From: Balneolaceae bacterium
Lineage (GTDB): Bacteria > Bacteroidota > Rhodothermia > Balneolales > Balneolaceae
DNA: 64,000 bases
Direction of reading: 5' to 3'
Assembly (NCBI GenBank): GCA_034521445.1
Contig: JAXHMM010000005.1
Span: 186,001-250,000, forward strand
The position numbers were made by a program, and so were the translations under genes. Each line of letters opens with the position of its first letter. The first letter of the stretch is position 1. Below are positions 2,254 to 58,220 of this stretch, one piece after another. The notes under the pieces were generated by a model. That model had not been told where the DNA came from. It saw only the letters and a program-made list of their open reading frames with translations, and searched no databases.

Positions 2254-4713
2254 CTAGATGGCGGGATACCGTGCGGGGTCGGCCTCGTGCATGAGGGCGT
2301 AGGCCGCCTCGAAGATGTCTTCCTCGTTGGGCTTGGAGAAGTAGTCGCCGTCTGAGCCAAAGGCGCCGCGGTGCTCCTTGGCGGTGAGGCACTGCGGTTC
2401 GGAGTCGAGATAATAGTAGCCCTTCTGCTCCTGGAGTACCTTGTTCAGCATGAAGGCGCTGGCACCCCCCGGAACGTCCTCGTCCACGAACAGGATGCGG
2501 TTGGTCTTCTGAAGTGATTTCACAATGTCGTGGTTGCGGTCGAAGGGCAACAGAGTGCGCACGTCGATGAGCTCGGCGGAGATGCCCGCATCGGCTAGCT
2601 GAGGCACCACGTCCTCGCAGATATTGCAGGTGGAGCCGTAGGAGACGATGGTAATATCGGTGCCCTCGGCAACCACCTTGGGGATGCCCAGCGGTACGGT
2701 AAACTCGCCCAGGTTCTCGGGCATGGGCTCTTTGAGGCGGTAGGCGTTCAGGGGCTCCACGACAAGCGCAGGGTCATCGCCCCGCAGCAGGGTGTTATAC
2801 ATGCCGGCGGCTTCGGTGAGGTTGCGCGGCACACATACGTGCACCCCGCGCACCCCGTTCAGGATCATACCCATGGGCGAGCCGGTGTGCCAGATGCCTT
2901 CCAGACGGTGTCCCCGTGTCCTTACAATGGCCGGCGCCTTCTGACCGCCCATGCTGCGGTAACGCACCGTAGCCAGGTCGTCGCTGAGACCCTGGAAGCA
3001 GAAAAGCAGGTAGTCCAGGTACTGAATCTCGGCGATGGGACGCAGCCCGCGCAGGGCCATGCCGATGCCCTGCCCCAGGATGGTGGCCTCGCGGATGCCG
3101 GTGTCGCGCACCCGCAACTCGCCGAACTTCTCCTGCATGCCTTCCAGTCCCTTATTTACATCGCCCAGCTTGCCGGTGTCCTCCCCGAAGACCAGCGTCT
3201 CTGGATATTGCTCAAAAATCTTCTCAAAGTTGTCGCGCAGCACCACGCGCCCGTCCACCTTTTCGGGATCGTCGCCATATACAGGCGCCACCTCCTCCAC
3301 GTTGAGGGGCGACTGCCCGCCCTCGCTGTAGAGATGCGAGTCGTAGCGCCGGCGGTTCAGTTCCATGTGCTTTTCAAGCCAGCGATCCATGTTTCTGCGC
3401 ACGGGATGGTCCTCGCCGCGGGTTACCCGCAGGGCCTTGCGTACTGCCCCGATGATGTCCTTGCGCAGGGGCACCATGGGACGATTCATCGCTTTCTTGA
3501 TTTCCTTCAGCTTTTCACCCTGCGCGCTGCTTGAAGCCAGCTCGTCAATCAGGGCCCCCGCCTGGTTCAGCTCTTCCTTGATCTCACCCTTGAAGGCGCT
3601 CCATGCAGCCTTCTGGGCCTCCTTCACGTCCTGCTCCGCCTGCTTCTCGATGGCGTCCAGCTCCTCCTCGCCGGCAATGCCCTCCTCCACCATCCAGACG
3701 CGCATCCTGCGTATGCAGCAGTACTCCTCCTCGAACTTCAGGCGCTCCTCGTCCTTGTAGCGTTCGTGGGAACCGGAGGTGGAGTGGCCCTGCGGCTGGG
3801 TGACCTCCTGCACGTGCACCAGCACAGGCACATGCTCCTCGCGGGCAATGCGCGCCGCCTTTTCGTAGGTCTCCAGCAGCGCGGGATAGTCCCACGCCTT
3901 CACACGCAGGATTTCGAGTCCCTCCTGCTCCTCGTTGCGCTGGAAGCCTTCCAGCGCGTCGGAGATGCTCTCCTTGGTGGTCTGGTACTTGCGCGGCACC
4001 GAAATGCCGTAGCCGTCATCCCACACCGAGAGCACCATGGGCACCTGCAGCACGCCCGCGGCGTTGACCGTCTCCCAGAAGGGTCCCTCGGAGGTACTGG
4101 CATCCCCGATGGTGCCCCAGGCTACCTCGTTGCCGTTGTCAGAAAATTTCCGGAATTCCTCACGCTCCTTCAGCTCCTCGTGGTTGCGGTAGATGGTCGA
4201 AGCCTGGGCCAGTCCCAGCAACCGGGTCATCTGCCCGCTGGTGGGCGAGATGTCGGGGGAGGTATTTTTCATCTTTGTCAGGTCCTTCCAGTTGCCCTCC
4301 TCGTCCAGGCTGCGGGTGCTGAAGTGGGCGTTCATCTGGCGACCCCCGCTGTTGGGCTCCTGCTCCACATCGGCGTGGGCGTAGAGCTGGGCGAAGAACT
4401 GCTGGAGGGTGACCTGCCCGATGGCCATCATAAAAGTCTGGTCGCGGTAGTAGCCCGAGCGGAAGTCCCCGTCTTTAAAATAGCGCGCCATGGCAATCTG
4501 CGGCATTTCCTTGCCGTCGCCGAAGATCCCGAACTTGGCCTTGCCGGTGAGTGTCTCCTTGCGTCCCAGGTAGGAGGCCTCCCGGCTCTCGACCGCCAGG
4601 CGGTAGTCCTCCAGCAGCTGTTCGTTCTCTTTCTTGGTCCGCTTCGACGTGGAGGCTGCCTGGGATGCGCTCTTCTTCTTGGTCTTGGTACTTGCCATGT
4701 TATCAGAATCCAT
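2254..4713 (-). CDS. Fused alpha-beta E1 component of a 2-oxoacid dehydrogenase
   Basis: Thiamine-diphosphate-dependent E1 of a pyruvate/branched-chain 2-oxoacid dehydrogenase complex, with both subunits on one 819-residue chain as is common in Bacteroidota. The alpha half (about residues 60-400) carries the ThDP motif starting GDASTSEGPFWETVN and ending WDDGYGIS. The beta half (about 480-815) carries FGEDTGKLGDVNKGL, EIQYLDYLLFCFQ and a C-terminal transketolase domain with DVRTLLPFD. A basic, lysine-rich N-terminus precedes the catalytic domain. An alternative ATG at 4698 would drop five residues. No E2 or E3 gene is in the window, so the exact substrate is open. The nearest upstream gene, fumC, also belongs to central carbon metabolism. 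Confidence 0.9.
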   Translation of the reverse strand: MDSDNMASTKTKKKSASQAASTSKRTKKENEQLLEDYRLAVESREASYLGRKETLTGKAKFGIFGDGKEMPQIAMARYFKDGDFRSGYYRDQTFMMAIGQVTLQQFFAQLYAHADVEQEPNSGGRQMNAHFSTRSLDEEGNWKDLTKMKNTSPDISPTSGQMTRLLGLAQASTIYRNHEELKEREEFRKFSDNGNEVAWGTIGDASTSEGPFWETVNAAGVLQVPMVLSVWDDGYGISVPRKYQTTKESISDALEGFQRNEEQEGLEILRVKAWDYPALLETYEKAARIAREEHVPVLVHVQEVTQPQGHSTSGSHERYKDEERLKFEEEYCCIRRMRVWMVEEGIAGEEELDAIEKQAEQDVKEAQKAAWSAFKGEIKEELNQAGALIDELASSSAQGEKLKEIKKAMNRPMVPLRKDIIGAVRKALRVTRGEDHPVRRNMDRWLEKHMELNRRRYDSHLYSEGGQSPLNVEEVAPVYGDDPEKVDGRVVLRDNFEKIFEQYPETLVFGEDTGKLGDVNKGLEGMQEKFGELRVRDTGIREATILGQGIGMALRGLRPIAEIQYLDYLLFCFQGLSDDLATVRYRSMGGQKAPAIVRTRGHRLEGIWHTGSPMGMILNGVRGVHVCVPRNLTEAAGMYNTLLRGDDPALVVEPLNAYRLKEPMPENLGEFTVPLGIPKVVAEGTDITIVSYGSTCNICEDVVPQLADAGISAELIDVRTLLPFDRNHDIVKSLQKTNRILFVDEDVPGGASAFMLNKVLQEQKGYYYLDSEPQCLTAKEHRGAFGSDGDYFSKPNEEDIFEAAYALMHEADPARYPAI

Positions 4714-45695: not shown

Positions 45696-46438
45696 GACCC
45701 CTCCCCCCTGATGGCTGTACGCGCCAGCCTGATAAAGATCTCCTCGATGGAGGCCGCGTTCCGGCTCTCTTTCAGTCCTTCCGGACTTCCCAGGGCCTCA
45801 ATGCGCCCGTCCACCATGATGGAGAGGCGATCGCAGTACTCGGCTTCGTCCATATAGTGCGTGGTGACGAATACGGTGGTACCATGGGAGGCCACGCGAT
45901 AGATCTCCTCCCAGAACTGCCTCCGTGTCACGGGATCAACGCCGCTGGTCGGCTCGTCCAGGAAGACAATCTCGGGATCGTGCAACAGGGCTACCGAAAA
46001 GGCCAGTTTCTGCCGCCATCCCAGGGGCAGGGAGCGAATGCGCTCGTCCCTGCTGCCCGATAGGCCCGTAGCCTGCAACAGGCCGCTGGCCTTGGCTTCA
46101 ATTTCACGGTCCGTCAGCCCGTAAATCCCCCCGTACAGGCGAATATTCTCCCAGACGGTGAGATCTTCGTAGAGAGAGAATTTCTGGCTCATATAGCCGA
46201 TGCGCCTCTTGATATCCTCCGCCCGTCGGTAGATGTCCAGTCCGGCCACTTCGGCATGGCCGGACGTGGGGCCAAGCAGTCCCGTCAACATACGCATGGA
46301 GGTGGTTTTTCCCGCCCCGTTGGCTCCCAGAAATCCAAAAATCTCCCCTCGCTCCACACGAAAGGTTATGCCGTCTACAGCGGTAAAATCGCCAAAATCA
46401 CGCCTGAGATCCTGGACATCAATAGCTGCTTTACTCAT
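45692..46438 (-). CDS. ABC transporter ATP-binding protein (second half of YbhF-like pair)
   Basis: 248 residues. Walker A FLGANGAGKTTSM, Q-loop SQKFSLY, signature RSLPLGWRQKLAFSVAL, Walker B VFLDEPTSGVD, H-loop VTTHYMDEA. The signature is LPLGW rather than the usual LSGGQ, which may be less active or typical for the partner subunit. E. coli YbhF carries two fused ATPase domains; here they are two genes. Confidence 0.88.
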   Translation of the reverse strand: MSKAAIDVQDLRRDFGDFTAVDGITFRVERGEIFGFLGANGAGKTTSMRMLTGLLGPTSGHAEVAGLDIYRRAEDIKRRIGYMSQKFSLYEDLTVWENIRLYGGIYGLTDREIEAKASGLLQATGLSGSRDERIRSLPLGWRQKLAFSVALLHDPEIVFLDEPTSGVDPVTRRQFWEEIYRVASHGTTVFVTTHYMDEAEYCDRLSIMVDGRIEALGSPEGLKESRNAASIEEIFIRLARTAIRGEGS

Positions 46439-47367
46439 TCCGGGCTTTCCCCCCTTCGGTCCATGAGCTCCATGAATACGTCCTCCACGCCCGGTTTGAT
46501 CTCCCGTACATCCACGTTCTGCGGCAGGTGATCACGCAGCAGTTTTTCCAGGCGGGCCGTATCCAACCCGCTCGAGACAGCGGTCACATGTACGGAGGCC
46601 CCGAATGGATGAACCGAATGGAGCTCTTCAAGAGACCTCAGCTGTCCAATCAATGCATACCTGTTTTCCCCTTTAACGGCCCATACGCGCCTTTGCATCC
46701 CGGAAGCCAGCTCGTCGGGCGGTGCCACCCGAAGCAGGCGCCCCTGCTGCATAAGCGCCACCCGGTCGCACCGGCGGGCCTCGTCCATGTACGGGGTCGA
46801 CACTACTACGGTGATGCCGCTGCCTGTTATCTGACCGAGCATCTGCCAGAATTCCTGTCGCGAGACGGCATCCACTCCAGTGGTAGGCTCGTCTAGCAAA
46901 AGCAGGTGGGGCCGGTGCACCAGGGCGCAGCTCAAGGCCAGCTTCTGTTTCATGCCGCCCGACAGGTCGCCCGCCAGGCGGTTCTTGAAGGGTTCAAGAT
47001 GACGGTATATGGGCTCAATGAGCTCATAGCCCTCCTGCACCGAGGTGCCAAATACAGAAGCGAAGAACGCAAGATTCTCAACTACGGAGAGGTCGCGGTA
47101 GAGTCCGAATTTGCCCGGCATGTATCCCAGCAGGGGACGCAGGCTTCGGTAGTCCCGTACGGTATCCATGCCGAGCACGCTTGCCCTGCCGGCGTCGGGA
47201 CGTATTAGAGAGGCCAGGATACGGAAGAGGGTGCTCTTGCCCGCTCCGTCCGGGCCTATTATTCCAAATAATTCTTTATTTGCGATTCGCAAACTTAAGT
47301 CTTTCAATGCCTGGACATTCTTATACGACTTTGCCAGGCCTTCCGCTATGACGGCAGGGGCGCTCAC
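46435..47367 (-). CDS. ABC transporter ATP-binding protein (first half of YbhF-like pair)
   Basis: 310 residues. Walker A IGPDGAGKSTLFR, Q-loop PGKFGLYRD, signature LSGGMKQKLALSCAL, Walker B LLLLDEPTTGVD, H-loop VVSTPYMDEA, plus a C-terminal extension with SVHPFGASVHVTAVS. Overlaps the following ATPase gene by four bases. The canonical LSGGM signature contrasts with the partner's divergent one. Confidence 0.88.
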   Translation of the reverse strand: MSAPAVIAEGLAKSYKNVQALKDLSLRIANKELFGIIGPDGAGKSTLFRILASLIRPDAGRASVLGMDTVRDYRSLRPLLGYMPGKFGLYRDLSVVENLAFFASVFGTSVQEGYELIEPIYRHLEPFKNRLAGDLSGGMKQKLALSCALVHRPHLLLLDEPTTGVDAVSRQEFWQMLGQITGSGITVVVSTPYMDEARRCDRVALMQQGRLLRVAPPDELASGMQRRVWAVKGENRYALIGQLRSLEELHSVHPFGASVHVTAVSSGLDTARLEKLLRDHLPQNVDVREIKPGVEDVFMELMDRRGESPE

Positions 47368-48329
47368 GGACTTCCCTCCACCCCTTCGAAGCGCACCTCG
47401 CCCGGCATGCCGATCTTCAGGCGTCCCCCGGGGTTGGGCACCCTCACCTTGACGGCGTAGACCTGGCTGACACGCTCCTCGCGCGTCTGGATCATTCGCG
47501 GAGTGAACTCCGCCTGCGAGGCGATCCAGCTTACAGTCCCCCGCATGCTGCGCAGCCCGGCGGCGCTGCTGTCCACCAGCACCTCCACCGACTGGCCAAG
47601 GCGCACGGCGGTAAGCTGGCCCCCGCTCACATAGACCCTCAGCATCAGCGTATCGAGAGCTGCAATTTCATAGAGAGGCTGTCCCGCGCCCACCAGCTCA
47701 AACTGTTCGACCATGGTGGTGAGCACACGTCCCCGTATGGGATTGACGACCGATGTCCTGCGCAGCCGGTCACGCACCTGCCGGATACGCACCTCCAGTG
47801 GACCCGCTTCGGAGGAGACGGTGTGCTGCTGTGCCTCCAGGGCCTGCACCCTTTTCTCCAGCGTGCTTACCCGCCCACGGGCGTCGTCCAATTGCTGCCG
47901 GGTGACTGCCTCCTCCTCCGCAAGAGCCTCCACACGGCGCAGGTCACCCCGCGCCACGGCCAGCTCCTGTCGCGCCACCTCGGTCTCGGCCTCCACACCC
48001 GCCCGTCTTGCACGCAGGGAGCGGCGCTGTGCCTGCAATTCCTCAAGCTGCATGGCCAGCTGGGTGGTGTCCACCCGTCCCACCCGGCGTCCCGGCGCGA
48101 GGGTGTCCCCTTCCCGTACCTCAAAGTGAAGAAGCGCCCCCCCCACCTCGGCGGAGACCGTCACCGGCTGCGCCTCAAACTGTCCCCAGGCGTCCGATGC
48201 GCGCTCTTGGGTACACCCTGCGACCATCGTCAACAGGAACAGAAGCGTGGCGATTGTGCCTGCGCTTGTTTCCAGTCTGCCCTCACCGTGCGTTGCGGCT
48301 TCCTCTACCTTATCGTCAGTCGTTTTCAT
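47364..48329 (-). CDS. HlyD-type periplasmic adaptor lipoprotein of the efflux system
   Basis: 321 residues. A polar stretch of about 25 residues precedes a hydrophobic segment ending TMVAGC (lipobox). Barrel-sandwich hybrid (EVGGALLHFEVREGDTLAPG), a long coiled-coil hairpin of about 110 residues (LEELQAQRRSLRARRAGVE...) and the second half of the sandwich (NPIRGRVLTTMVEQFELVG). It bridges the ABC permease and TolC. Its end overlaps the ATPase gene. Confidence 0.86.
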   Translation of the reverse strand: MKTTDDKVEEAATHGEGRLETSAGTIATLLFLLTMVAGCTQERASDAWGQFEAQPVTVSAEVGGALLHFEVREGDTLAPGRRVGRVDTTQLAMQLEELQAQRRSLRARRAGVEAETEVARQELAVARGDLRRVEALAEEEAVTRQQLDDARGRVSTLEKRVQALEAQQHTVSSEAGPLEVRIRQVRDRLRRTSVVNPIRGRVLTTMVEQFELVGAGQPLYEIAALDTLMLRVYVSGGQLTAVRLGQSVEVLVDSSAAGLRSMRGTVSWIASQAEFTPRMIQTREERVSQVYAVKVRVPNPGGRLKIGMPGEVRFEGVEGSP

Positions 48330-49603
48330 GGCTTTGCTCCCAATTTGGTGTTGTAGTCGCTTACGGCCCTGGCCAGCTCCACGCGATGCACCTGGCGGTT
48401 CAGCTCGGCGCGGTTAAGACGGTTCAGAGCCGAGAGGTATTCCGTGGCGGTAATGGCGCCCTGCTCCAGCCGGCTGGCATGCTCCTCGACGATCTGCCGG
48501 CTGAGACGGATCAGTTTTTCATCACTTGCAACGACCTCCTCCAGGGAGAGGATCTCCCGGCGCAGGGTGGCCAGCTCCCCGCCGAGCCGACGTTCGAACG
48601 CCCGCTCGTCAGCCTCTGCCTGCTGCCGCTGCAGGTTCAATACCTGCCGCTCCCGGCCGGCGTTCACGGCCTGCCACAGGTTCCAGCGCAGGCGCACGCC
48701 CACCACATACCAGGCCTGCAGGTCGTCGTCAAAAGCATCCAAACCGGGCCGTCCCCATGCGGTGGTGGCGAAGGCCGACAGGCTGGGCGTCCTGCGGGAG
48801 CCCGCCAGCTCCGCTCGCCGGTCTAGAAGCGCCATAGAGGCATCATAGAGACCGAATTCGGGTCTTAGCTCGTCCTGCAGACCGGCCCGGGACATCTCTG
48901 TAGGGGGCACCGACAGGGCGGTGCCGGTACCCAGCTCGCGTCCCAGCAGCTCGCCCAGCATCTCCCGGGCGCCGTGCAGGCGCGACGCGGCGCGAATGGA
49001 GTCCTGCCGGGCCCGCACCAGCTCCGCCTCCAGGATGTACTGCTGGCTGGCGAGTAGCACGCCCTGACGCACTCTGGCGCGAACCGTGCGGAGCTGCTGA
49101 CGAAGGTCCCCGGCCAGCAGGCGCACCGATTCGGCCTCCTTCTGCAGCATCAAGGCATTGAAGTATACGCGGCTCACTTGCTCGCGCACCTGCTGCAGTT
49201 CCACCCGCACCGAGGCCGCGCCCCGTCGCCCGGAGGCCTCCTCCACGGCCTGCAGGGCCGAAATGCGGCCGCCGGCATAGATGGGCTGAGCCAGCTCCAG
49301 GGAGAGCCGGTAGTGATCCCTGCTGAAGGTGGGCGGTTCGGCGCCCGGTGGAGTGAAGGTAACTTCGGTAACATCGGACTGATAGCTGGCCATAGCGCCC
49401 GCCTGCACCTGCGGGAAGGCGCCGCTGGCCGCCATGCGGCGGTTGATCTCGGTCATACGGCGCTGCAGCTCCTCTTTGTCGGCGGTCGGGAAACGCTCCT
49501 CTACCAGGAGGTGGCTCTCGGCCAGGGTGAGGGTGTCCGGGGCGGCGCCGGATGGGCCGGCGGCCACCTGCATTCCAAACAGCAGTGCGAAAAGCCAGAT
49601 CAT
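48326..49603 (-). CDS. TolC-family outer membrane efflux protein
   Basis: 425 residues with signal peptide (MIWLFALLFGMQVAAG). Long alternating helices typical of OEP proteins: EERFPTADKEELQRRMTE, then RLSLELAQPIYAGGRISAL, EEVVASDEKLIRLSRQIVEE and GAITATEYLSALNRLNRAE. It overlaps the hlyD gene by four bases and follows tetR by 12 bases. Completes the tripartite pump. Confidence 0.88.
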   Translation of the reverse strand: MIWLFALLFGMQVAAGPSGAAPDTLTLAESHLLVEERFPTADKEELQRRMTEINRRMAASGAFPQVQAGAMASYQSDVTEVTFTPPGAEPPTFSRDHYRLSLELAQPIYAGGRISALQAVEEASGRRGAASVRVELQQVREQVSRVYFNALMLQKEAESVRLLAGDLRQQLRTVRARVRQGVLLASQQYILEAELVRARQDSIRAASRLHGAREMLGELLGRELGTGTALSVPPTEMSRAGLQDELRPEFGLYDASMALLDRRAELAGSRRTPSLSAFATTAWGRPGLDAFDDDLQAWYVVGVRLRWNLWQAVNAGRERQVLNLQRQQAEADERAFERRLGGELATLRREILSLEEVVASDEKLIRLSRQIVEEHASRLEQGAITATEYLSALNRLNRAELNRQVHRVELARAVSDYNTKLGAKP

Positions 49604-49615
49604 AGTCGACCTCCC

Positions 49616-50230
49616 TTATTTGCTTACGGAGTTGAGTATGTAGCCTGGGAGCGACCTGCGACGCTCCTCCATGAATCGCTCGTATTCCCGCGGATCCATT
49701 TCGAAAACCGTCTCCACCATGCTCCGGGCGATAAAGGGAAATACACAGAGGGCGATGATGTTGACCAGAAATTCGTGCGGCTTGACCTGCTTCATGCTTC
49801 CCGCCCGAATCTCCTCCTCCACCTGCCGCAGGAAGGGGGCCGGAATGCCCCCCACCTGGCCTTTCATAAACTGCTTGAATCGCTGGGGGTTCTGATTCAT
49901 CTCATAGATCACGAAGGAGGGCAGGTGCGGATGCTCTCGGAAAATGCCGTAGTAGGTGTCGACCAGCTCCTTCACTTTGGGCACAATGCCCTGATCGCCG
50001 GCCAGCACCTTCTGGATCACGGGAAAGAAGTGGCGGACTGCGTCCTGGAATACGGCCTGAAAGAGCTTGTCCTTGCTGCGGTAGTAGTAGTGCAGCATGG
50101 CCTTGTTAATACCGGCCTCGTCGGCGATGGCCTGCATGCGCGCGCCTTCGTAACCTTCGCGGTGGAATACCATTTTAGCTGCCTCGAATATCTGCTCTTC
50201 GGTCTCTTCGCTTTCGGACATGTGTGGCAT
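49616..50230 (-). CDS. TetR/AcrR-type regulator of the efflux operon
   Basis: 204 residues from the ATG at 50230 (MPHMSESEETEEQ); an ATG nine bases later is also possible. The HTH reads MQAIADEAGINKAMLHYYYRSKDKLFQAVF. The C-terminal ligand domain is helical. The frame continues upstream to 50302, but that would lie inside the operator, so the shorter start is preferred. In E. coli the CecR (YbiH) regulator precedes ybhGFSR; the arrangement here is the same. Confidence 0.85.
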   Translation of the reverse strand: MPHMSESEETEEQIFEAAKMVFHREGYEGARMQAIADEAGINKAMLHYYYRSKDKLFQAVFQDAVRHFFPVIQKVLAGDQGIVPKVKELVDTYYGIFREHPHLPSFVIYEMNQNPQRFKQFMKGQVGGIPAPFLRQVEEEIRAGSMKQVKPHEFLVNIIALCVFPFIARSMVETVFEMDPREYERFMEERRRSLPGYILNSVSK

Positions 50231-50288
50231 CTTGCATTGTACGATTTCGCGTATATAGGCCCACAGGGGAGTATGCGCGCCTTCTGCA

Positions 50289-50319
50289 CCAGTATAGGCC
50301 ATTTAACTGAATGGTTCAA
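50289..50319 (-). promoter_or_regulatory. Promoter of the tetR efflux operon
   Basis: Minus-strand TTG (50319-50317), 20 bases, TATACTGG (50296-50289). The spacer and -33 element lie inside the palindrome at 50301-50333, so bound TetR would block it. About 60 bases precede the ATG at 50230. Confidence 0.5.
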
Positions 50320-50674: not shown

Positions 50675-52387
50675 CTAGCCGATGCGGTACTTCAGGTCCT
50701 CAATCATTTCCAGAATCTCTCCGCGGTCCATCTTCCGGTAGCGCTCGGGAAGCAGCTCCTTCGAGGTACACTCGATCACCGCGCTTAATGTCTGAAGCTC
50801 AATCTCCTCCGGGTAGGTGGGCGGGAGGAAATCAGCCAGGGCGGCGTCGAGCATCTGCGGGGTGACCTTACGCTGCCCCTCGGCGGCCGCACGGAACTTG
50901 GCGCGTGTGAGGGCGGCCTCCATGTCGGCTCCCGAAAAGGTTTTCAGTCCGTCCTCGATGATGCCCGGCACATACTCCTCGGTCATCTCCAGGCCCGTTT
51001 TTTTGGCCATGGCCTCGTAGAGCTCCAGGCGCTCCTCCCTGGTGTGGGGCGGAAAGAGGGCCAGGTGCTCCTCGGCGCGGCCCTGCCGCTTGAGATCCAC
51101 CGGCATCAGGTCGGGGCGAGCCGTCATCAGAAACCAGATGATGCGTCCCCGGTTCCTCGTATCGCTCATAAAGGTCGCAATCTGCGAGAAAACGCGGCTG
51201 GAGACCCCGCTGTCGCCGCTGGCGTCGCGGTCGCCCAGGTAGGCATCCGCCTCGTCGATCATCACCGCCACCGGCGCCATGGCTTTAAGCAGTCCCAGGA
51301 TCTTCTCCAGGTTCCCTTCGGTGACGCCCTGCCACTGGCTTCGAAAGTTTTTGAGTTTAACCATGGGGATGCCTACCTCGCTGGCAAAGCAGGTCACCAG
51401 AAAAGTCTTGCCGGTGCCCACGGGACCGCATACCAGGTAACCCATGGGGAGCACGTCCTCGCGCCCCGCCTTCAGGGCCTGCACCGCCTGGCGCAGGTGC
51501 CTCTTCACCCCGCCGTGACCCGCAACGTTGTCGAGGTTGTACTCGGTCTCCACGAACTCCAGGAGCCCGTAGGCCTCCGCCTCGATCATCTCCTTCTTGA
51601 TCTCCTTGAGCTGGGCGAAGGTGACCGGTTCGTTGTTCTCGCGGGCATTGGAGAGGATGGCTCGCAGGTTGATGTAGTTGAGGCCGGCCGTCTGCCGTGC
51701 GAGGTTCTCCGCCTGCACCTCAGAAAGTTTCCTGAACTCCTCCTCCCCGCAGTCGAAGCGGATGTAATCCAGGCGGTCCGACTCCCCGGGGATGTTGATT
51801 CTGATCTCGGTGGTGTAGGGATTCTGGATCAGGGTCTTGCTTAGATCAGCAAGGTTTTCGGAGACAAGCACCGTAGTGAAATCGGCCGCCAGGAACATGG
51901 GGTCGTGGGCCCAGCGGGAGAGGTAGACCAGGGCGTTGCGGTCTTCCGAGCCTGTGGAGCCCGCCTCGTTCATAGGCACCACTGTTTCGGCGTAGTCGAT
52001 GATGAAGGCGATGCTCTTGCCGTCGTCTATACGGATGCGGAAGTACTGCTCCAACAAGGCGAAAACACGGACCGGGTCCTTCGGCAGCTTTTCGGCATAC
52101 TCGGTGCCCACCAGGGAGTCGCGTCCTGCCACCGCCCGGTTGAAATCCTTCTGGGTCTCCTTGTCCCTGAAATAGATGCCTGAGGAGCGGTCGTAAAATA
52201 TCACGTAGTCGCGGGCCCCGAAGAACTCCTCCGACAGAAAGGATTTGAGCCGCACAAAGCTCGTCTGTTCCTCCCGGCGCAAGGCAACCAGGTCGTGCAC
52301 GTTGCCGTGGATGATGAACTGGTTGATGGTCCGGCTGAGGTATTTCTGGGCGAACTCCTGCGCCCAGCGCGGGTAGTGGTCAAACAT
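50675..52387 (-). CDS. AAA+ ATPase with an apparently degenerate first ATPase domain
   Basis: 570 residues. The second AAA+ domain (about residues 280-500) is intact: Walker A CGPVGTGKTFLV, Walker B VAVMIDEADAYL, sensor MTARPDLMP and a likely arginine finger in KRQGRAEEH. Residues 1-270 look like a degenerate AAA+ unit: IAFIIDYAETVVP resembles a Walker B, IPGESDRLDYIRF and QTAGLNYINLRAIL resemble the sensor-2/lid, but no Walker A is present. A Cdc48/Vps4-like remodelling role is inferred. It is the last gene of the PspA operon, 18 bases after the CBS gene. No peptidase domain is visible. Confidence 0.8.
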   Translation of the reverse strand: MFDHYPRWAQEFAQKYLSRTINQFIIHGNVHDLVALRREEQTSFVRLKSFLSEEFFGARDYVIFYDRSSGIYFRDKETQKDFNRAVAGRDSLVGTEYAEKLPKDPVRVFALLEQYFRIRIDDGKSIAFIIDYAETVVPMNEAGSTGSEDRNALVYLSRWAHDPMFLAADFTTVLVSENLADLSKTLIQNPYTTEIRINIPGESDRLDYIRFDCGEEEFRKLSEVQAENLARQTAGLNYINLRAILSNARENNEPVTFAQLKEIKKEMIEAEAYGLLEFVETEYNLDNVAGHGGVKRHLRQAVQALKAGREDVLPMGYLVCGPVGTGKTFLVTCFASEVGIPMVKLKNFRSQWQGVTEGNLEKILGLLKAMAPVAVMIDEADAYLGDRDASGDSGVSSRVFSQIATFMSDTRNRGRIIWFLMTARPDLMPVDLKRQGRAEEHLALFPPHTREERLELYEAMAKKTGLEMTEEYVPGIIEDGLKTFSGADMEAALTRAKFRAAAEGQRKVTPQMLDAALADFLPPTYPEEIELQTLSAVIECTSKELLPERYRKMDRGEILEMIEDLKYRIG

Positions 52388-52405
52388 GGCTCGGGGGTTG
52401 GTTGG

Positions 52406-53683
52406 TTACTCCACGTTCAGGATCAGCCGTATGGTCTCGATACGGCTGGGCGTGGCCTTGCTGATGATAAACTTGTGTCCGCCGAGCAGCAGCTCCTCGT
52501 TCACCTTCGGGATGCGTCCCAGCTCATGGATGATGTAGCCCGCCACGGTCTCGAACTCGGCCGACTCCTCCGGGAGGGCGATCTCCGGGAAAGCCTCCCC
52601 CAGGTCTTCCAGCTCCACGCCTCCGCTGATCACGAAGGAATTGGCGGAAAGTTTTTTGGCGAAATGCTCCTCGGTATCATACTCATCCTGTATGTCCCCG
52701 ACCACCTCCTCCAGCAGATCCTCGATGGTCACCATCCCCGCCGTGCCGCCGTACTCGTCAATGACAATGGCCACGGATATGTTCGATTTGCGAAACTCGG
52801 AAAGCAGGTCTTTGGACTTCTGGGAAGAGGGGACCAGCTTGATCGGACGCATGATCTGCGTCAGGTTTTCAGGATTGCCAAACAGGTCGTAGGCAAAAAT
52901 AACCCCGATAATGTCGTCGATGCTCTCCTGGTAGACCGGCAGCTTCGAGAAGCCCGAACCGATAAAAACCTTGAGGGTCTCTTCGATGCTGGTGTTCTTC
53001 TCCACGGCCACGATGTCGGTGCGAGGGATCATAGACTCGCGTACCCGTTTGCTGGAGAGCTCCAGCACGTTGTGCAGAAGCTCCGAGTCATCTTTGTCCA
53101 GGTCACTTCCTCCGGTGTCGCGCAACTCCTTGAAGATCAGCTCCACGTCCTGGCGGCGAAGGAGATGTTCGGAAGGCTCGGAGCCTGGAGCCAGGGCGCG
53201 GATAAGTATGTTGGAGGCGGCGTTGGCCACCATAATGAGCGGCTTGAATAACCAGTGGAACAGCTGCTGCGGGATGGCGATAATCTTGAACCACCAGTCA
53301 GCGTGGATGCGGAAGAGCGCCTTGGGAAGGATCTCCCCAAAGATCATGATTATCACCGAGGCGATGAAGGTCTGCACGGCCAGTACCAGTCCGGTGGAGG
53401 GAGGGACGCCGGTCCATCCCAGGTAGACCTGCGTGATGGGACCCACCAGGAAGATGGTCATCAGCGTGGCGTAGAGCACGTTGACGATGTTGTTGCCCAC
53501 CAGGGTGGTAGTCAGAAAGGTTTCCGGGTTGCGGGTAAAATAGTTGATGGTGCGCCCGGTAAAGGAGCTCTTGCGTGACTCGATCTCCAGTTTGAGGCGG
53601 TTGGCGGAAACAAAGGCGATCTCCGATCCCGAGAAAAAACCGCTGAGCAGGACGGTGAGAACGATGAGGGCGAGTTCGAACAT
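52406..53683 (-). CDS. CNNM/CorC-type membrane protein (DUF21-CBS-CorC_HlyC)
   Basis: 425 residues. DUF21 with four membrane segments (ALIVLTVLLSGFFSGSEIAF, TTLVGNNIVNVLYATLMT), then two CBS modules from about residue 210 (MIPRTDIVAVEKNTSIEETL, FGNPENLTQIMRPIKLVPSS) and a C-terminal CorC_HlyC domain (VAGYIIHELGRIPKVNEEL). Relatives act in Mg2+ or Co2+ efflux. The ATG adjoins the TAG of the enoyl-CoA hydratase gene, so they are cotranscribed. Confidence 0.9.
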   Translation of the reverse strand: MFELALIVLTVLLSGFFSGSEIAFVSANRLKLEIESRKSSFTGRTINYFTRNPETFLTTTLVGNNIVNVLYATLMTIFLVGPITQVYLGWTGVPPSTGLVLAVQTFIASVIIMIFGEILPKALFRIHADWWFKIIAIPQQLFHWLFKPLIMVANAASNILIRALAPGSEPSEHLLRRQDVELIFKELRDTGGSDLDKDDSELLHNVLELSSKRVRESMIPRTDIVAVEKNTSIEETLKVFIGSGFSKLPVYQESIDDIIGVIFAYDLFGNPENLTQIMRPIKLVPSSQKSKDLLSEFRKSNISVAIVIDEYGGTAGMVTIEDLLEEVVGDIQDEYDTEEHFAKKLSANSFVISGGVELEDLGEAFPEIALPEESAEFETVAGYIIHELGRIPKVNEELLLGGHKFIISKATPSRIETIRLILNVE

Positions 53684-54463
53684 CTACCTGCCCTTAAAAT
53701 CCGCCTTTCGCTTCTCCAGGAAGGCAGAGGTTCCCTCGGCGAAATCCTCGGTATCGCAGAGATTGCCGAAGAGCGAGGCCTCCGCCACATAGCCTTTTTC
53801 GCCGCCTGCCCGGTTGACGGCGCGGATGGCGTTGCGTACCGCGAGGGGGCCGTTCTTGAGGATGGCTCCCAGCAGCTCCCGCGCCTCCTCGACGGGATCA
53901 TCGTCAGCGAGGCGGTTTACAAGCCCCATCTCCAGGGCCTTCCCTGCCTTCACCTGGCGTCCGCTGGCGATCATCTCCACGGCGCGTGCGTTGCCTACCA
54001 GACGCGGCAGACGCTGAGTGCCCCCATACCCGGGGATGATGCCCAGTCCCACCTCGGGCAGCCCGAAGACCGCCGAGGGTCCGGCCACACGCAGGTGACA
54101 GGCCATGGCCAGCTCGCACCCGCCGCCCAGGGCATAGCCGTTTACGGCGGCCACCACGGGCTGGGGATTGTCCTCTATCTGCTGCATGATCTGCTGTCCG
54201 CGGCGCGAAAACTCCTCCCCGGAGGCACGGTCAAGTTCGCTCAGCTCGCCGATGTCGGCGCCGGCCACAAAGGCCTTGTCGCCTGCGCCGGTCACGATGA
54301 CCCCCGCGATCTCTCCGTCGCCGGCAATAGACTGGAAGGCTTCCGAGAGCTCGTCCAGCACTTCGGCGTTGAGGGCGTTCATCTTCCGGGGACGGTTGAC
54401 CGTCAGTTGGGCGATGCCGTCGGCACCGGTTTCCAGGGAAAGGGTGCTGTAGGATTGGCTCAT
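53684..54463 (-). CDS. Enoyl-CoA hydratase/isomerase family protein
   Basis: 259-residue crotonase. The oxyanion and CoA site is visible as KAFVAGADIGEL; the two catalytic glutamates are in GGGCELAMA and GLPEVGLGI. So both are conserved and hydratase activity is likely. Its place in a PspA operon is unusual; it may modify acyl chains in the membrane, but this is a guess. Both neighbours are 0 and 13 bases away. Confidence 0.9.
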   Translation of the reverse strand: MSQSYSTLSLETGADGIAQLTVNRPRKMNALNAEVLDELSEAFQSIAGDGEIAGVIVTGAGDKAFVAGADIGELSELDRASGEEFSRRGQQIMQQIEDNPQPVVAAVNGYALGGGCELAMACHLRVAGPSAVFGLPEVGLGIIPGYGGTQRLPRLVGNARAVEMIASGRQVKAGKALEMGLVNRLADDDPVEEARELLGAILKNGPLAVRNAIRAVNRAGGEKGYVAEASLFGNLCDTEDFAEGTSAFLEKRKADFKGR

Positions 54464-54476
54464 AAATGAAGGTGTG

Positions 54477-55436
54477 CTATTCTTTGACGCGATTGGGGGA
54501 ATTGGCCTGGGACTCCCGCGATTCCTGTCCTGTTTCGCCGGAATCCGCCTCGGAGTCCAGTTCGGCGTCTATCTCGGCTTTTCTGCCTGCGCCCGCCTCC
54601 GATTCGGCTTTCCTAAGTTCGGCATCCAGCTCCATTTCATCAAGTTCGGAGTGCACCGGCAGGATGTCGCGGTCAAGGTCGTCGATAAGTTGCGAGGTCT
54701 CCTCCACCTCCTCCAGCAGATTATCAAGCTGGAAACCGATCTCCTCGGGGTTGCTCATGGTCATCGACTGCTCATAAATGTAACGGATCGCATCCTCTAT
54801 GGTCTCCAGGTGCGTCTCGCAGATGAGGTACTTTTCCTTGGCGATCTCAAATTTTTTGAGCCTCTTTTTCAGAATGGCGATACGGCGTTTCTTGGTCTTC
54901 TTCAGCCGTTCCGAATGCAGCTTCTCCACGTTCTGCTCCTCGGCTTCGACCTCACGCTTCAGGCTCTCCTCCACGGAGGTGTTCATGTAGAGCTGATAGC
55001 GTTTGTGCAGATCCAGCAGGGTAAGGTAGTTGGAGGTGAGCTCCTCAATCTTGTTGCGAATGTTGTCCAGCAGCCCCTGGGAACTGTAGGGCAGTTTATC
55101 GAAATTTTCCCGGATCAGCTTGGCCAGGTGTTTCAGCACCAGGAAGCGCTTCTTGCTCTTCTGGTCCAGCTCCTGGAAAGTGTTCTTGTCATCATGGGCC
55201 GCATTGCGGTCGCGCAGCTTCTTCAGCTTGATGTTTTTGCGGAAGCGTGGCAGGCGCGGCACAATGCCCAGGTACATCAGCTCCACGCCGAAGGTCATGG
55301 TAAGCACCAGGTTGGAGATGAGTCCCATGTCGCTCAGCACGAAAGCCGATACGGTGGCCACCAGCAGCCCGCCCAGGTTCAGGGGGTGCAGGAAGGCCTC
55401 GCGCGCATAGTTTATGGAATCTTGTTCCTCTTCCAT
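54477..55436 (-). CDS. Membrane coiled-coil protein of the PspA operon
   Basis: 319 residues, family not recognised. Two membrane helices lie near the N-terminus: LGGLLVATVSAFVLSDMGLI (about 21-40) and NLVLTMTFGVELMYLGIV (about 42-59). From 65 to 290 almost all sequence is charged heptad-like coiled coil (KSKKRFLVLKHLAKLIRENF, KKTKKRRIAILKKRLKKFEI). The C-terminus is very acidic (ELDEMELDAELRKAESEAG). Long helix plus membrane hairpin would suit a membrane partner of PspA/ESCRT-III polymers. It starts five bases after the previous stop. Confidence 0.72.
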   Translation of the reverse strand: MEEEQDSINYAREAFLHPLNLGGLLVATVSAFVLSDMGLISNLVLTMTFGVELMYLGIVPRLPRFRKNIKLKKLRDRNAAHDDKNTFQELDQKSKKRFLVLKHLAKLIRENFDKLPYSSQGLLDNIRNKIEELTSNYLTLLDLHKRYQLYMNTSVEESLKREVEAEEQNVEKLHSERLKKTKKRRIAILKKRLKKFEIAKEKYLICETHLETIEDAIRYIYEQSMTMSNPEEIGFQLDNLLEEVEETSQLIDDLDRDILPVHSELDEMELDAELRKAESEAGAGRKAEIDAELDSEADSGETGQESRESQANSPNRVKE

Positions 55437-55441
55437 GCTTT

Positions 55442-55957
55442 TCAGGACTGGCTGTTTTGTGATTCGGAATCCGGCCCAACAGACTTTTCGACTTTTGGAC
55501 TTCCCGACTTCCCGACTTTATGACTTTCTGACTTCCCGACTTTATGACTTTGTTTACCGATAGTCTTATCCACGTCCAGGGCGGAGGCCTGCTTCTCGAT
55601 CTCGCTGTAGAGCAGCCCCATCTCCACCTTCACCTGCTTGAGGGTCTCCTTGGCACGGACGCGGTTAAGCTCCTCGTCACGCTCCATCTCGCCCACGGGC
55701 GAATCCGGATCCTCGTCCAGGCTGTCCATGGCCACCTCGAGGCGGGCCTCCACGGTGGCGATTTTCGTCTTTACGCCGGTCAGGAAATCGTCAAAGGAGT
55801 CCATCACCTGGGAGGTGTCCATGTCGCGCAGAGCCTGGGCAATGTTGCGCGTTTTGCGGGTGCGATTAAGCCGCTCCTTGGTCTCCCGCATCTTGCGGTA
55901 GTGCTCCTTGTACTCCTCCTTGAGGCGTTCGCGTTCCTCGCGGCTGTTGCGGCTCAT
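55442..55957 (-). CDS. Coiled-coil protein paralogous to the C-terminal half of PspA
   Basis: 171 residues, from the ATG at 55957. Residues 1-35 are a charged helix (SREERERLKEEYKEHYRKMR). Residues 40-130 align with the C-terminal helices of the upstream PspA: EARLEVAMDSLDED here against EARMEIALDSVDTE there, and LKQVKVEMGLL here against VKQFKSEMGLE there. It lacks the N-terminal membrane-binding and hairpin helices. The last 35 residues (SHKVGKSES, SHKVGKSGSPKVEKS) are translated from the AAGTC array and look unrelated. It may cap or tune PspA polymers; this is inference. Confidence 0.72.
   Translation of the reverse strand: MSRNSREERERLKEEYKEHYRKMRETKERLNRTRKTRNIAQALRDMDTSQVMDSFDDFLTGVKTKIATVEARLEVAMDSLDEDPDSPVGEMERDEELNRVRAKETLKQVKVEMGLLYSEIEKQASALDVDKTIGKQSHKVGKSESHKVGKSGSPKVEKSVGPDSESQNSQS
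55482..55553 (-). repeat. AAGTC array inside the 3' end of the PspA-paralogue gene
   Basis: Ten or so AAGTC units on the minus strand with three or four variable bases between (GACTT on plus). They are in frame and encode a Ser/Lys/Gly/Val-rich tail. Same unit as the arrays at 22.7 and 32.6 kb. Confidence 0.8.
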
Positions 55958-55985
55958 GGCGTGGGTGCGTTGGCGTTGTGTGGGG

Positions 55986-56774
55986 TCAGGACTTCGAGCG
56001 CTCCTTGTTGCCGATAGTCTTGCCGGACTCCTCCTGCTTTTCGCCGGAAGCGTCCACGTCAATGCGACCATCGGACTGGGAGGCTTCCTTCCCGGCGAAT
56101 TCTCCGCCGGCCTCGAGTCCCATTTCGGACTTGAACTGCTTGACCAGCTCGCTGGCGCGCAGCTTCTCGGCGTTGGCCTCGATTTCCATAGCTTCGGTGT
56201 CCACGCTGTCGAGGGCAATCTCCATGCGCGCCTCGTTTTTGGCGGTCCGCTCGTTGAGGCGGTTGATCATCTCGTCGTGGGTCTGGTCGAGTCCGCCCAC
56301 TTCGAACTGCTCCAGGGTGTCGGCCACCTTGGCCTGCCACTCGGCGCGTTCGCTGGCCCGAAGGGCCTCCTTGGCCTCCTGGATTTTGTGATCCTTCTCA
56401 CGAATAAAGGCCTTCTTAACCTTGAGGGCTTTCTCGTAGGCCTGCTCGGCAAACTTGAGCTGTTCCCTGGAGGTCTGCAGATTTTCCTTCGCTTTCTCCA
56501 GCTGCAGGGCGTAGCCCTCGGCGATGTCGTCGCGGTCGGCCTGGATGGCAGACTTGATTTTGGCGGTGAGGTCCTCGATGCGCTTCTCGTACTTCTTGAC
56601 CTCCTTCTGAAGCATCATCAGGTTGGCCTTCACCGTGGCGATGTTCTCGTTCATCTGCGGAATCTGGTCGTTCAGGTCCCGGATGTTCTGCTCCAGGATC
56701 AGCTTGGGATCCTCCATGGAGCTGATAAAACCGCCAAATATCGATTTGAGAGCCCTAATAAATCGTTTAAACAT
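55986..56774 (-). CDS. pspA: PspA/IM30 (ESCRT-III fold) protein
   Basis: 262 residues from the ATG at 56774 (MFKRFIRALKSIFGGFISSM, an amphipathic N-terminal helix). DPKLILEQNIRDLNDQIPQM starts the helical hairpin, followed by long coiled coil (EVKKYEKRIEDLTAKIKSA, KVKKAFIREKDHKIQE) and the C-terminal helices (DEMINRLNERTAKNEARMEI). This pattern is PspA/Vipp1, which forms membrane-binding helical polymers and protects the membrane. No PspF or PspB/C partner is present. A promoter lies just upstream, and downstream genes are tightly spaced. Confidence 0.86.
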   Translation of the reverse strand: MFKRFIRALKSIFGGFISSMEDPKLILEQNIRDLNDQIPQMNENIATVKANLMMLQKEVKKYEKRIEDLTAKIKSAIQADRDDIAEGYALQLEKAKENLQTSREQLKFAEQAYEKALKVKKAFIREKDHKIQEAKEALRASERAEWQAKVADTLEQFEVGGLDQTHDEMINRLNERTAKNEARMEIALDSVDTEAMEIEANAEKLRASELVKQFKSEMGLEAGGEFAGKEASQSDGRIDVDASGEKQEESGKTIGNKERSKS

Positions 56775-56834
56775 GATACGTTCCCTTAGATTGAAATTGC
56801 CCATGCCCGCTGGCCTGAAACCGCACAGGGGCTA

Positions 56835-56865
56835 CAATGTTAGGTTTAATTGATTTTATTGCAAT
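56835..56865 (-). promoter_or_regulatory. Predicted promoter of the PspA operon
   Basis: Minus-strand TTG (56864-56862), 19 bases, TAACATTG (56842-56835), a good fit to the Bacteroidota promoter, in the gap between deoA and pspA. About 60 bases before the pspA ATG. Spacing suggests the operon is transcribed independently of deoA. Confidence 0.45.
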
Positions 56866-58220
56866 TATTTATCGCTTTTTCCTGCCGATTCCAAAATGCC
56901 CCGTTCGTCCACCTTGCCGGAGATCAGTCGAGGGGGGTCCGGCGGCGTTTGACCTACCGAGAAAGCATCCCGTAACATGGCGTTAACTTCCTCAATGGCA
57001 TGGTTATTGTTCGTAAAGGCCCTTAGTATTGTTTCATCCTTTTTGACAGTATCCCCAATTTTCTTTTCAAGCACAATGCCGGCGACAGGGTCCACCCCGT
57101 CCTCTTTCCTCCGGCGGCCGGCCCCCAACTCCAGGGAGGCCATACCCAGCGCGTAGGCGTCCAGGCGCTCCAGCCATCCCTCCTCTTCGGCCTCCACGCT
57201 GAAGGCGTGCTCCGCCGGCGGGTAGCGGTCGGGGTGGCGCAGCAGTCCGACATCCCCGCCCTGGGCCTCGACGAGCCGCAGAAAGGTCTCCCAGGCCTCC
57301 CCGGATACCACCGCCTCCCGGCTCATGGCCCGGCCCTCCTCCTCCGAGCCGGCCGCCCCGCCCAGGTGCAGCATGCTCCCGGCCAGGGTGTGGGTCACCT
57401 CCATGACGTCATCGGGTCCCCCGCCCTGCAGGCAGGCGATACTCTCCTCCACTTCCAGCCAGTTACCGATACGGCGTCCCAGGGGCTGCTCCATGGAGGT
57501 CATCCAGGCCACGGTCTCCACCCCGAAGCGCCGGCCGATGGACACCATGGTGCGGGCCAGCTCTTCGGCCTGTCCAGGGTCGGGAAGAAAGGCCCCGCTG
57601 CCCGTCTTTACATCCAGCACCAGCGCGTCGATGCCCTCGGCCAGCTTCTTGCTCATGATGCTGCCGGCGATCAGGGGGATGCTCTCCACGGTGGCCGTCA
57701 CGTCACGCAGGGCATAGAGGCGCTTGTCGGCGGGGGCGATCTCCTCGGTCTGTCCGCACATGACCATACGGTGCTCCCGCAGGAGCTCGCGGAAGCGGTC
57801 GGGCGGCACGTTCACGTCGAAGCCTGTAATCGACTCCAGTTTGTCGAGGGTGCCGCCTGTGTGGCCGAGTCCACGTCCCGAAATCATGGGCACATTCACG
57901 CCCCGGCTGGCCACGATGGGCGCCAGGACCAGGGAGACCTTGTCGCCCACCCCGCCGGTGGAGTGCTTGTCCACCTTGCTGCCGGGGATGTCGTCCAGGT
58001 CGAGCACCGTGCCCGAACGCAGCATGGCCTCGGTGAGCACGGCCGACTCCTCCGGGTTGAGTCCCCTGATAAAGGCGGCCATGAGGAAGGCGCTCATCTG
58101 GTAGTCGGGGATCTCGTCGGCGGTATAAGCCTGGATAAGGCGGCGGATCTCCTCCCCGGAGAGCGTGCCGCCGTTCCTCTTCTTGCGGATGATCGATACG
58201 GGGTTGAACTTGATTCCCAT
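56865..58220 (-). CDS. deoA: Pyrimidine-nucleoside/thymidine phosphorylase
   Basis: Cleaves thymidine or uridine with phosphate. 451 residues. N-terminal alpha domain (IIRKKRNGGTLSGEEIRRLI), the phosphate-binding SKVDKHSTGGVGDKVSL, and the family signature SGRGLGHTGGTLDKLESI. The substrate region has KTGSGAFLPD. The C-terminus carries a beta/alpha domain with biotinyl-like fold (EKKIGDTVKKDETILRAF). It is intact; whether it prefers thymidine or uridine cannot be told. Confidence 0.9.
   Translation of the reverse strand: MGIKFNPVSIIRKKRNGGTLSGEEIRRLIQAYTADEIPDYQMSAFLMAAFIRGLNPEESAVLTEAMLRSGTVLDLDDIPGSKVDKHSTGGVGDKVSLVLAPIVASRGVNVPMISGRGLGHTGGTLDKLESITGFDVNVPPDRFRELLREHRMVMCGQTEEIAPADKRLYALRDVTATVESIPLIAGSIMSKKLAEGIDALVLDVKTGSGAFLPDPGQAEELARTMVSIGRRFGVETVAWMTSMEQPLGRRIGNWLEVEESIACLQGGGPDDVMEVTHTLAGSMLHLGGAAGSEEEGRAMSREAVVSGEAWETFLRLVEAQGGDVGLLRHPDRYPPAEHAFSVEAEEEGWLERLDAYALGMASLELGAGRRRKEDGVDPVAGIVLEKKIGDTVKKDETILRAFTNNNHAIEEVNAMLRDAFSVGQTPPDPPRLISGKVDERGILESAGKSDK

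Follow-up and report, generated by a model that had tools for sequence, protein, structure and literature searches.

Described systems and the present locus

In bacteria, PspA and Vipp1 belong to the ESCRT-III proteins, and the route by which their polymers are disassembled is the question addressed here through the pairing of a short tail tag with an unfoldase. A structural paper on PspA suggested, by analogy with Vps4, only chaperones or PspF for disassembly (PMC11746142). According to the main text of Ravi et al. (2024, mSystems, PMC11237479), PspA occasionally co-occurs with a protein that has two AAA domains, of which the N-terminal is inactive, and ATP-dependent membrane remodelling was proposed for the pair; a Bacteroidetes neighbourhood given there (CBH24266.1) holds PspA, Snf7 and a coiled-coil protein. 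Here we describe a six-gene operon in a 64,000-nucleotide stretch of DNA (the window; assembly GCA_034521445.1, contig JAXHMM010000005.1, positions 186,001 to 250,000) from a Balneolaceae bacterium of the class Rhodothermia. It encodes PspA, a truncated PspA paralogue, a two-helix membrane protein with a coiled-coil domain (HAIR), an enoyl-CoA hydratase (ECH), a CNNM-type membrane protein and a double-AAA ATPase. We call the paralogue PspB'; the name stands here for a PspA fragment and is unrelated to E. coli PspB. The operon is real and strongly conserved, and its new testable element is a KTIG tag in the protein tails, together with the co-loss of this tag and the unfoldase.

The core idea of a preliminary description of this DNA, a pairing of PspA with an AAA ATPase, was already known, since Ravi et al. 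had reported it. The main text of that paper (its supplements were outside our search) has no CNNM or enoyl-CoA hydratase partners, truncated paralogue, tail tag or co-loss. The double AAA protein described there and the ATPase of this operon both have two AAA domains and an inactive N-terminal one (D1, here with the P-loop motif GxxxxGK[ST] in 0 of 79 homologues); the PspA neighbourhood is likewise found here in Balneolota, but not in Rhodothermales.

The locus resembles the ESCRT-III and Vps4 systems (CdvB/CdvC) of eukaryotes and archaea in having several paralogous ESCRT-III-superfamily proteins, a short motif in a disordered C-terminal tail, and an AAA ATPase of the D2 type whose pore loop carries a tryptophan. 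It differs from them in that the ATPase has no MIT domain and two AAA domains rather than one, and in that the tails have no MIM but the tag K[TS][IVLM]G. Two AAA domains and a fold that matches NVL and p97 over the whole chain are shared with the Cdc48/p97/NVL proteins, from which the ATPase is set apart by a D1 without a P-loop, a missing N-terminal Cdc48 domain and a score far under the CDC48 cut-off. The proteobacterial PspF-PspABC system has PspA in common with the locus. PspB, PspC and PspF are not among the six operon proteins, and the preliminary description was right to regard the set as unlike that layout.

A tag shared by the tails of PspA and PspB'

PspA (55986..56774, minus strand; 262 amino acids) belongs to the ESCRT-III superfamily and, with 64 bits against a curated cut-off of 33.9 for Pfam PspA_IM30, to the PspA/IM30 family. 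It has an N-terminal amphipathic segment, MFKRFIRALKSIFGGF, and a disordered C-terminal tail. Its start had been placed at 56804; however, homologues show no conserved sequence upstream of MFKRF, and we therefore place it at this conserved start, at 56774, 30 bases further in.

PspB' (55442..55957, minus strand; 171 amino acids), recognized by hhalign and by class-wide alignment, aligns with PspA residues about 127-255 (99.2% probability, E 2.5e-19), which bears out its earlier description as a short paralogue of the PspA C-terminus. Because it spans only this part of PspA, PspB' has neither the N-terminal amphipathic helix nor the helical hairpin. Neither PspB' nor HAIR has any Pfam match.

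The disordered tails of both proteins carry the tag K[TS][IVLM]G, all copies being on the minus strand. In PspA it is KTIG at residues 252-255 (56010..56021); in PspB' there are two copies, KTIG at residues 131-134 (55556..55567) and KSVG, as read from the translation, at residues 158-161 (55475..55486), and PspB' proteins often carry such a second copy. The tag-bearing tail peptides include EESGKTIGNKERSKS and DVDKTIGKQS. The tails are variable in both length and sequence, yet the tag is strongly conserved: it is present in 80 of 92 PspA tails and in 84 of 84 PspB' tails, compared with 1.0 and 0.7, respectively, expected from shuffled tails. It occurs in 4 of 1021 unrelated genes and in 0 of 91 HAIR proteins. 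Shuffled tails and background genes together rule out an effect of chance or composition.

The tag need not be on both proteins. In families f8, f11 and f16, PspA has no tag and PspB' has one or two, while in families f6 and f18 PspB' is missing and PspA retains the tag. All 86 ATPase-positive loci have at least one tag on PspA or PspB'. The tag, the truncated paralogue as a tag carrier, their class-wide distribution and the co-loss described below are new elements, found in none of the papers searched; 'KTIG' together with PspA also occurs in no paper searched, with most subscription papers and all supplements beyond reach.

Joint loss of the tag, PspB' and the ATPase

We surveyed the ATPase in all 218 genomes of the class with a completeness of at least 80% and found it in 193. 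Both genes were sought in 172 class genomes, 143 of which were ATPase-positive, with PspA present in 143 of 143. Among the 25 genomes without the ATPase, eight also lack PspA, 13 have PspA without the tag and PspB', and four keep the tag. The group of 13 consists of G090, G203 and family f5 (G108, G113, G176-G182, G185 and G186). Members of f5, with genomes of 2.6-3.8 Mb, have kept PspA and HAIR, and also CNNM where the locus could be read, and have lost the tag, PspB' and the ATPase. In genus g67, QKTVHV or a similar sequence stands at the site where relatives carry KTVG. ATPase-positive relatives in the same groups retain the tag (G142, G183 and G184; G127 and G164-G166).

One of the losses can be followed in its remains. 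Compared with an ATPase-positive congener, G090 has undergone two separate deletions, the second of which runs through the body of the ATPase, with ECH and CNNM intact in between. The ATPase relic (L091, locus positions 2847-3056) has 70 codons and two in-frame stops and adjoins the intact CNNM and ECH genes. When 18 of the 25 ATPase-less genomes were searched with a profile, only this relic turned up, along with weak matches, in the D2 region, to other AAA proteins of at least 480 residues.

On a tree of the PspA body and HAIR, with the tails excluded, the ATPase and the tag change three times each, on the identical three branches. By branch length, the probability that all three tag losses fall on ATPase-loss branches by chance is about 1e-5, a value computed post hoc and indicative only. 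In all well-assembled genomes examined, the tag tracks the ATPase.

The double-AAA ATPase

The ATPase (50675..52387, minus strand; 570 amino acids; Pfam AAA, 83.7 bits) is modelled by AlphaFold2 as two AAA domains, D1 at about residues 1-270 and D2 at about 275-545, with a mean predicted local distance difference test score (pLDDT) of 84.5. D2 contains Walker A (321-328), Walker B (373-379), the pore loop W352-x-G354 and the arginines R434/R437. Among the same 79 homologues, Walker A of D2 is present in 76, and Walker B, the W-x-G pore loop and the RQGR arginine motif are each present in all 79. As judged from these motifs, D2 is the active domain and D1 is P-loop-less.

The whole chain matches the folds of NVL (Z 22.8, 476 residues, root-mean-square deviation (rmsd) 6.5) and p97 (Z 22.6, 465 residues, rmsd 9.3), proteins of the Cdc48/p97 type with two AAA domains per chain, as here; D2 alone superposes on Vps4 (Z 22.4, 262 residues, rmsd 2.9). 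The CDC48 family model TIGR01243 gives 74.7 bits, far under its cut-off of 802.65. There is no match to a Vps4-type N-terminal MIT domain, the AAA domain of D1 starting at residue 1, and the two AAA domains of the model differ from the single AAA cassette of Vps4. The ATPase is thus neither Vps4 nor a family-grade Cdc48. The D2 rings of these families thread unfolded polypeptide and, by analogy, the D2 ring here would do the same. A PspF-like transcription activator was considered and rejected, as there is no supporting domain among the Pfam and NCBIfam matches. Plasmid relatives of the ATPase comprise two distant Bacillota proteins with 23-24% identity in D1 and no PspA nearby, and are uninformative.

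Conservation of the cluster across the class

The lineage group that carries this module is made up of salt-loving bacteria. A scan of genome contigs based on the ATPase gave 80 loci in Balneolota and Rhodothermota. In the 54 Balneolota loci of sufficient length to include all genes, order and strand are kept from the nucleoside phosphorylase upstream of PspA through to the ATPase, and the clustering of the six genes is beyond chance. Median gaps in the Balneolota loci are 12, 1.5, 3, 79 and 51 bases, so that PspA, PspB', HAIR and ECH are packed tightly and the gaps to CNNM and the ATPase are wider. Of 146 class genomes, 142 carry PspA and 141 carry HAIR, the two genes lying next to each other. 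Outside the class, a search of about 185 other Bacteroidota genomes gave no ATPase at E below 1e-30, and PspA is all but missing there, with one weak match in 80 genomes.

In Rhodothermales, the cluster of phosphorylase, PspA, PspB', HAIR, (ECH) and CNNM is retained without the ATPase, which instead adjoins a class I aldolase, an EutN/CcmL-like gene and amidohydrolases (neighbours named by sequence reading). The expectation that the genes stay together in relatives therefore holds for Balneolota but fails for Rhodothermales, where the ATPase lies elsewhere, beside the aldolase and other metabolic genes.

The EutN/CcmL-like gene, of a microcompartment vertex type and 92-117 amino acids long, immediately follows the ATPase gene in 7 of 22 Rhodothermales loci (L067, L073, L076, L078, L079 and others), its identity resting on sequence reading only. 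In the loci that have it, a class I fructose-bisphosphate aldolase lies upstream of the ATPase.

A candidate route of disassembly and its alternatives

On the evidence of sequence comparison, the operon is probably a bacterial ESCRT-III/Vps4-like membrane-maintenance module, in which the ATPase would act on PspA and PspB' via the tag. PspA would polymerise on the membrane, anchored or nucleated there by HAIR, and PspB' would enter the polymer as a truncated subunit that supplies further tags. A hexamer of the ATPase would recognise the tags, most likely by way of D1, which would stand in for the missing MIT domain, and would thread the tails through D2 to extract subunits, whereby the PspA coat may be remodelled or recycled. 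CNNM and the enoyl-CoA hydratase would stand outside this polymer cycle, probably serving ion or polyamine balance and lipid supply. The simplest account of the conservation and loss patterns appears to be that the ATPase, the tag and PspB' together make up a sub-module directed at PspA, with the tag as the handle of the ATPase. More tentatively, and with chances that we judge to be nearly balanced, this may be a bacterial system for ESCRT-III disassembly that has a recruitment code of its own: the KTIG tag on PspA and on a truncated tag-carrier paralogue would be read by a Cdc48-type double-AAA unfoldase, much as MIM is read by MIT in the code of Vps4.

The preliminary description had proposed that the ATPase may remodel PspA with the coiled-coil protein as a membrane anchor. 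The tie between ATPase and PspA is strengthened by their co-occurrence, by the shared tag and by the three independent co-losses of ATPase, tag and PspB'; for HAIR, with two predicted transmembrane helices and a constant place beside PspA, a role as membrane anchor or nucleator for PspA is plausible.

Several observations weigh against a tag read by the ATPase. A sign test on the three losses gives p 0.25, as there are too few independent events. PspB' and the tag were lost on the same branches, so the element that the ATPase would read is ambiguous, and it stays so in G090, where one deletion took the PspA tail, PspB' and HAIR together. The Rhodothermales ATPase lies outside the PspA cluster. 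Finally, the four genomes that keep the tag with no ATPase detected (G107, G128, G141 and G217) are fragmented metagenome-assembled genomes (MAGs) of 87-92% completeness, in which the fragmented assembly may be the explanation.

The last two of these points would also suit an alternative in which the tag is read by a phospho-threonine reader, or by another partner co-lost with the ATPase, and the ATPase is a co-travelling member of the same response. The alternation of T and S at the second position of the tag suits a phosphosite, and HAIR and PspB' belong to the same module. HAIR is, however, an unlikely reader, being kept in the ATPase-less family f5 that lost the tag, and the tag follows the ATPase itself in all the well-assembled genomes that were examined. 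We regard this alternative as unlikely.

More improbable is a reversal of roles, in which PspA and PspB' would regulate the ATPase rather than be its substrates. The precedent is E. coli PspA, a known adaptor and inhibitor of the AAA+ activator PspF, and the presence of the ATPase is always accompanied by PspA. But the ATPase has no DNA-binding domain in Pfam or NCBIfam and groups with unfoldases of the Cdc48/Vps4 type and not with sigma-54 activators, while a tag on a flexible C-terminal tail is a typical feature of engaged substrates. Equally improbable is a loose collection of genes, with the ATPase in general Cdc48-like quality control and the shared losses due to erosion of stress functions in a handful of lineages, as its place among metabolic genes in Rhodothermales, the dispensability of ECH in one family and the small size of some ATPase-losing genomes might suggest, since the losses are selective, f5 dropping the tag, PspB' and the ATPase but retaining PspA and HAIR, and the tag is strongly conserved within otherwise variable tails.

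The coming and going of the conserved tag with the unfoldase offers a concrete test, at the level of peptides, for a dedicated ESCRT-III disassembly ATPase in some bacteria. It also bears on the question of repeated origins of tag-based recruitment among such ATPases.

Operon structure, accessory genes and neighbours

The six open reading frames (ORFs) all lie on the minus strand, from 56774 to 50675, with intergenic gaps of 28, 5, 13, 0 and 18 bases; the one-strand layout and the gaps agree with those first given. HAIR (54477..55436, minus strand; 319 amino acids) has two transmembrane helices, at about residues 18-37 and 39-61, followed by a helical coiled-coil domain (AlphaFold2, pLDDT 85). 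A Foldseek search with its fold gave no significant match (best E 0.05), only weak BAR-like and designed helical matches, and its fold matches reach a Z of about 10, a level common among helical bundles. Because these matches are weak and not significant, no family is assigned to HAIR. A hidden PspA/Snf7 homologue was rejected, hhalign to PspA giving only 3.8%. As family f5 retains HAIR without the ATPase, we tie HAIR to PspA rather than to the ATPase.

ECH (53684..54463, minus strand; 259 amino acids) is an enoyl-CoA hydratase/crotonase (Pfam ECH_1, 217.9 bits), in which both catalytic Glu positions, read by eye, appear to be present (FGLPE, VEM). The CNNM/CorC-type CBS membrane protein (52406..53683, minus strand; 425 amino acids; Pfam CNNM 137 and CorC_HlyC 62 bits) is closest to the GldE subfamily, although its 240 bits for NCBIfam GldE are under the cut-off of 376. 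Pfam agrees with the first naming of these two proteins and of the AAA+ ATPase (ECH_1; CNNM, CBS and CorC_HlyC; AAA). Both CNNM and ECH look auxiliary; this judgement is based on the absence of the ECH gene from one Rhodothermales family.

A promoter had been predicted ahead of the operon. A scan for E. coli-type promoters found none at the operon head, but a candidate of the Bacteroidota type, TTG-N19-TAACATTG (pattern TTG-N19-TAnnTTTG; 56835..56864, minus strand), is suggested by its recurrence in relatives. It sits in the 90-base gap between a pyrimidine nucleoside phosphorylase (PYNP) gene and PspA. Of 53 relatives, many of them close and not independent, 25 have a match of at least 5 of 6 positions, where shuffling predicts 1.5; the spacing is mostly 19 bases, and the distance to pspA is similar. 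The PYNP gene (56865-58220) is the immediate upstream neighbour of PspA in nearly all Balneolota and in many Rhodothermales loci. Its membership of the operon was considered and dropped, and it is classed as a neighbour because the conserved promoter-like site separates it from PspA.

Downstream, on the same strand (46435-50302), lie genes for an ABC ATPase (46435-47367), an HlyD-like protein, a TolC-type outer membrane protein and a TetR regulator, which resemble an efflux cluster. The TetR regulator beside the ATPase is retained mainly in Fodinibius relatives.

Two otherwise intact operons have a single internal stop, one in HAIR (G017:C1:2082564-2083438) and one in the ATPase (G040:C152:262-1989), each of which is either an assembly error or a fresh pseudogene. 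In two Balneolota MAGs, a 1.9-kb gap between ECH and CNNM contains an extra gene of roughly 275 amino acids (L028, 6318-7157; L029, 471-1295), the C-terminus of which happens to hold KTLG.

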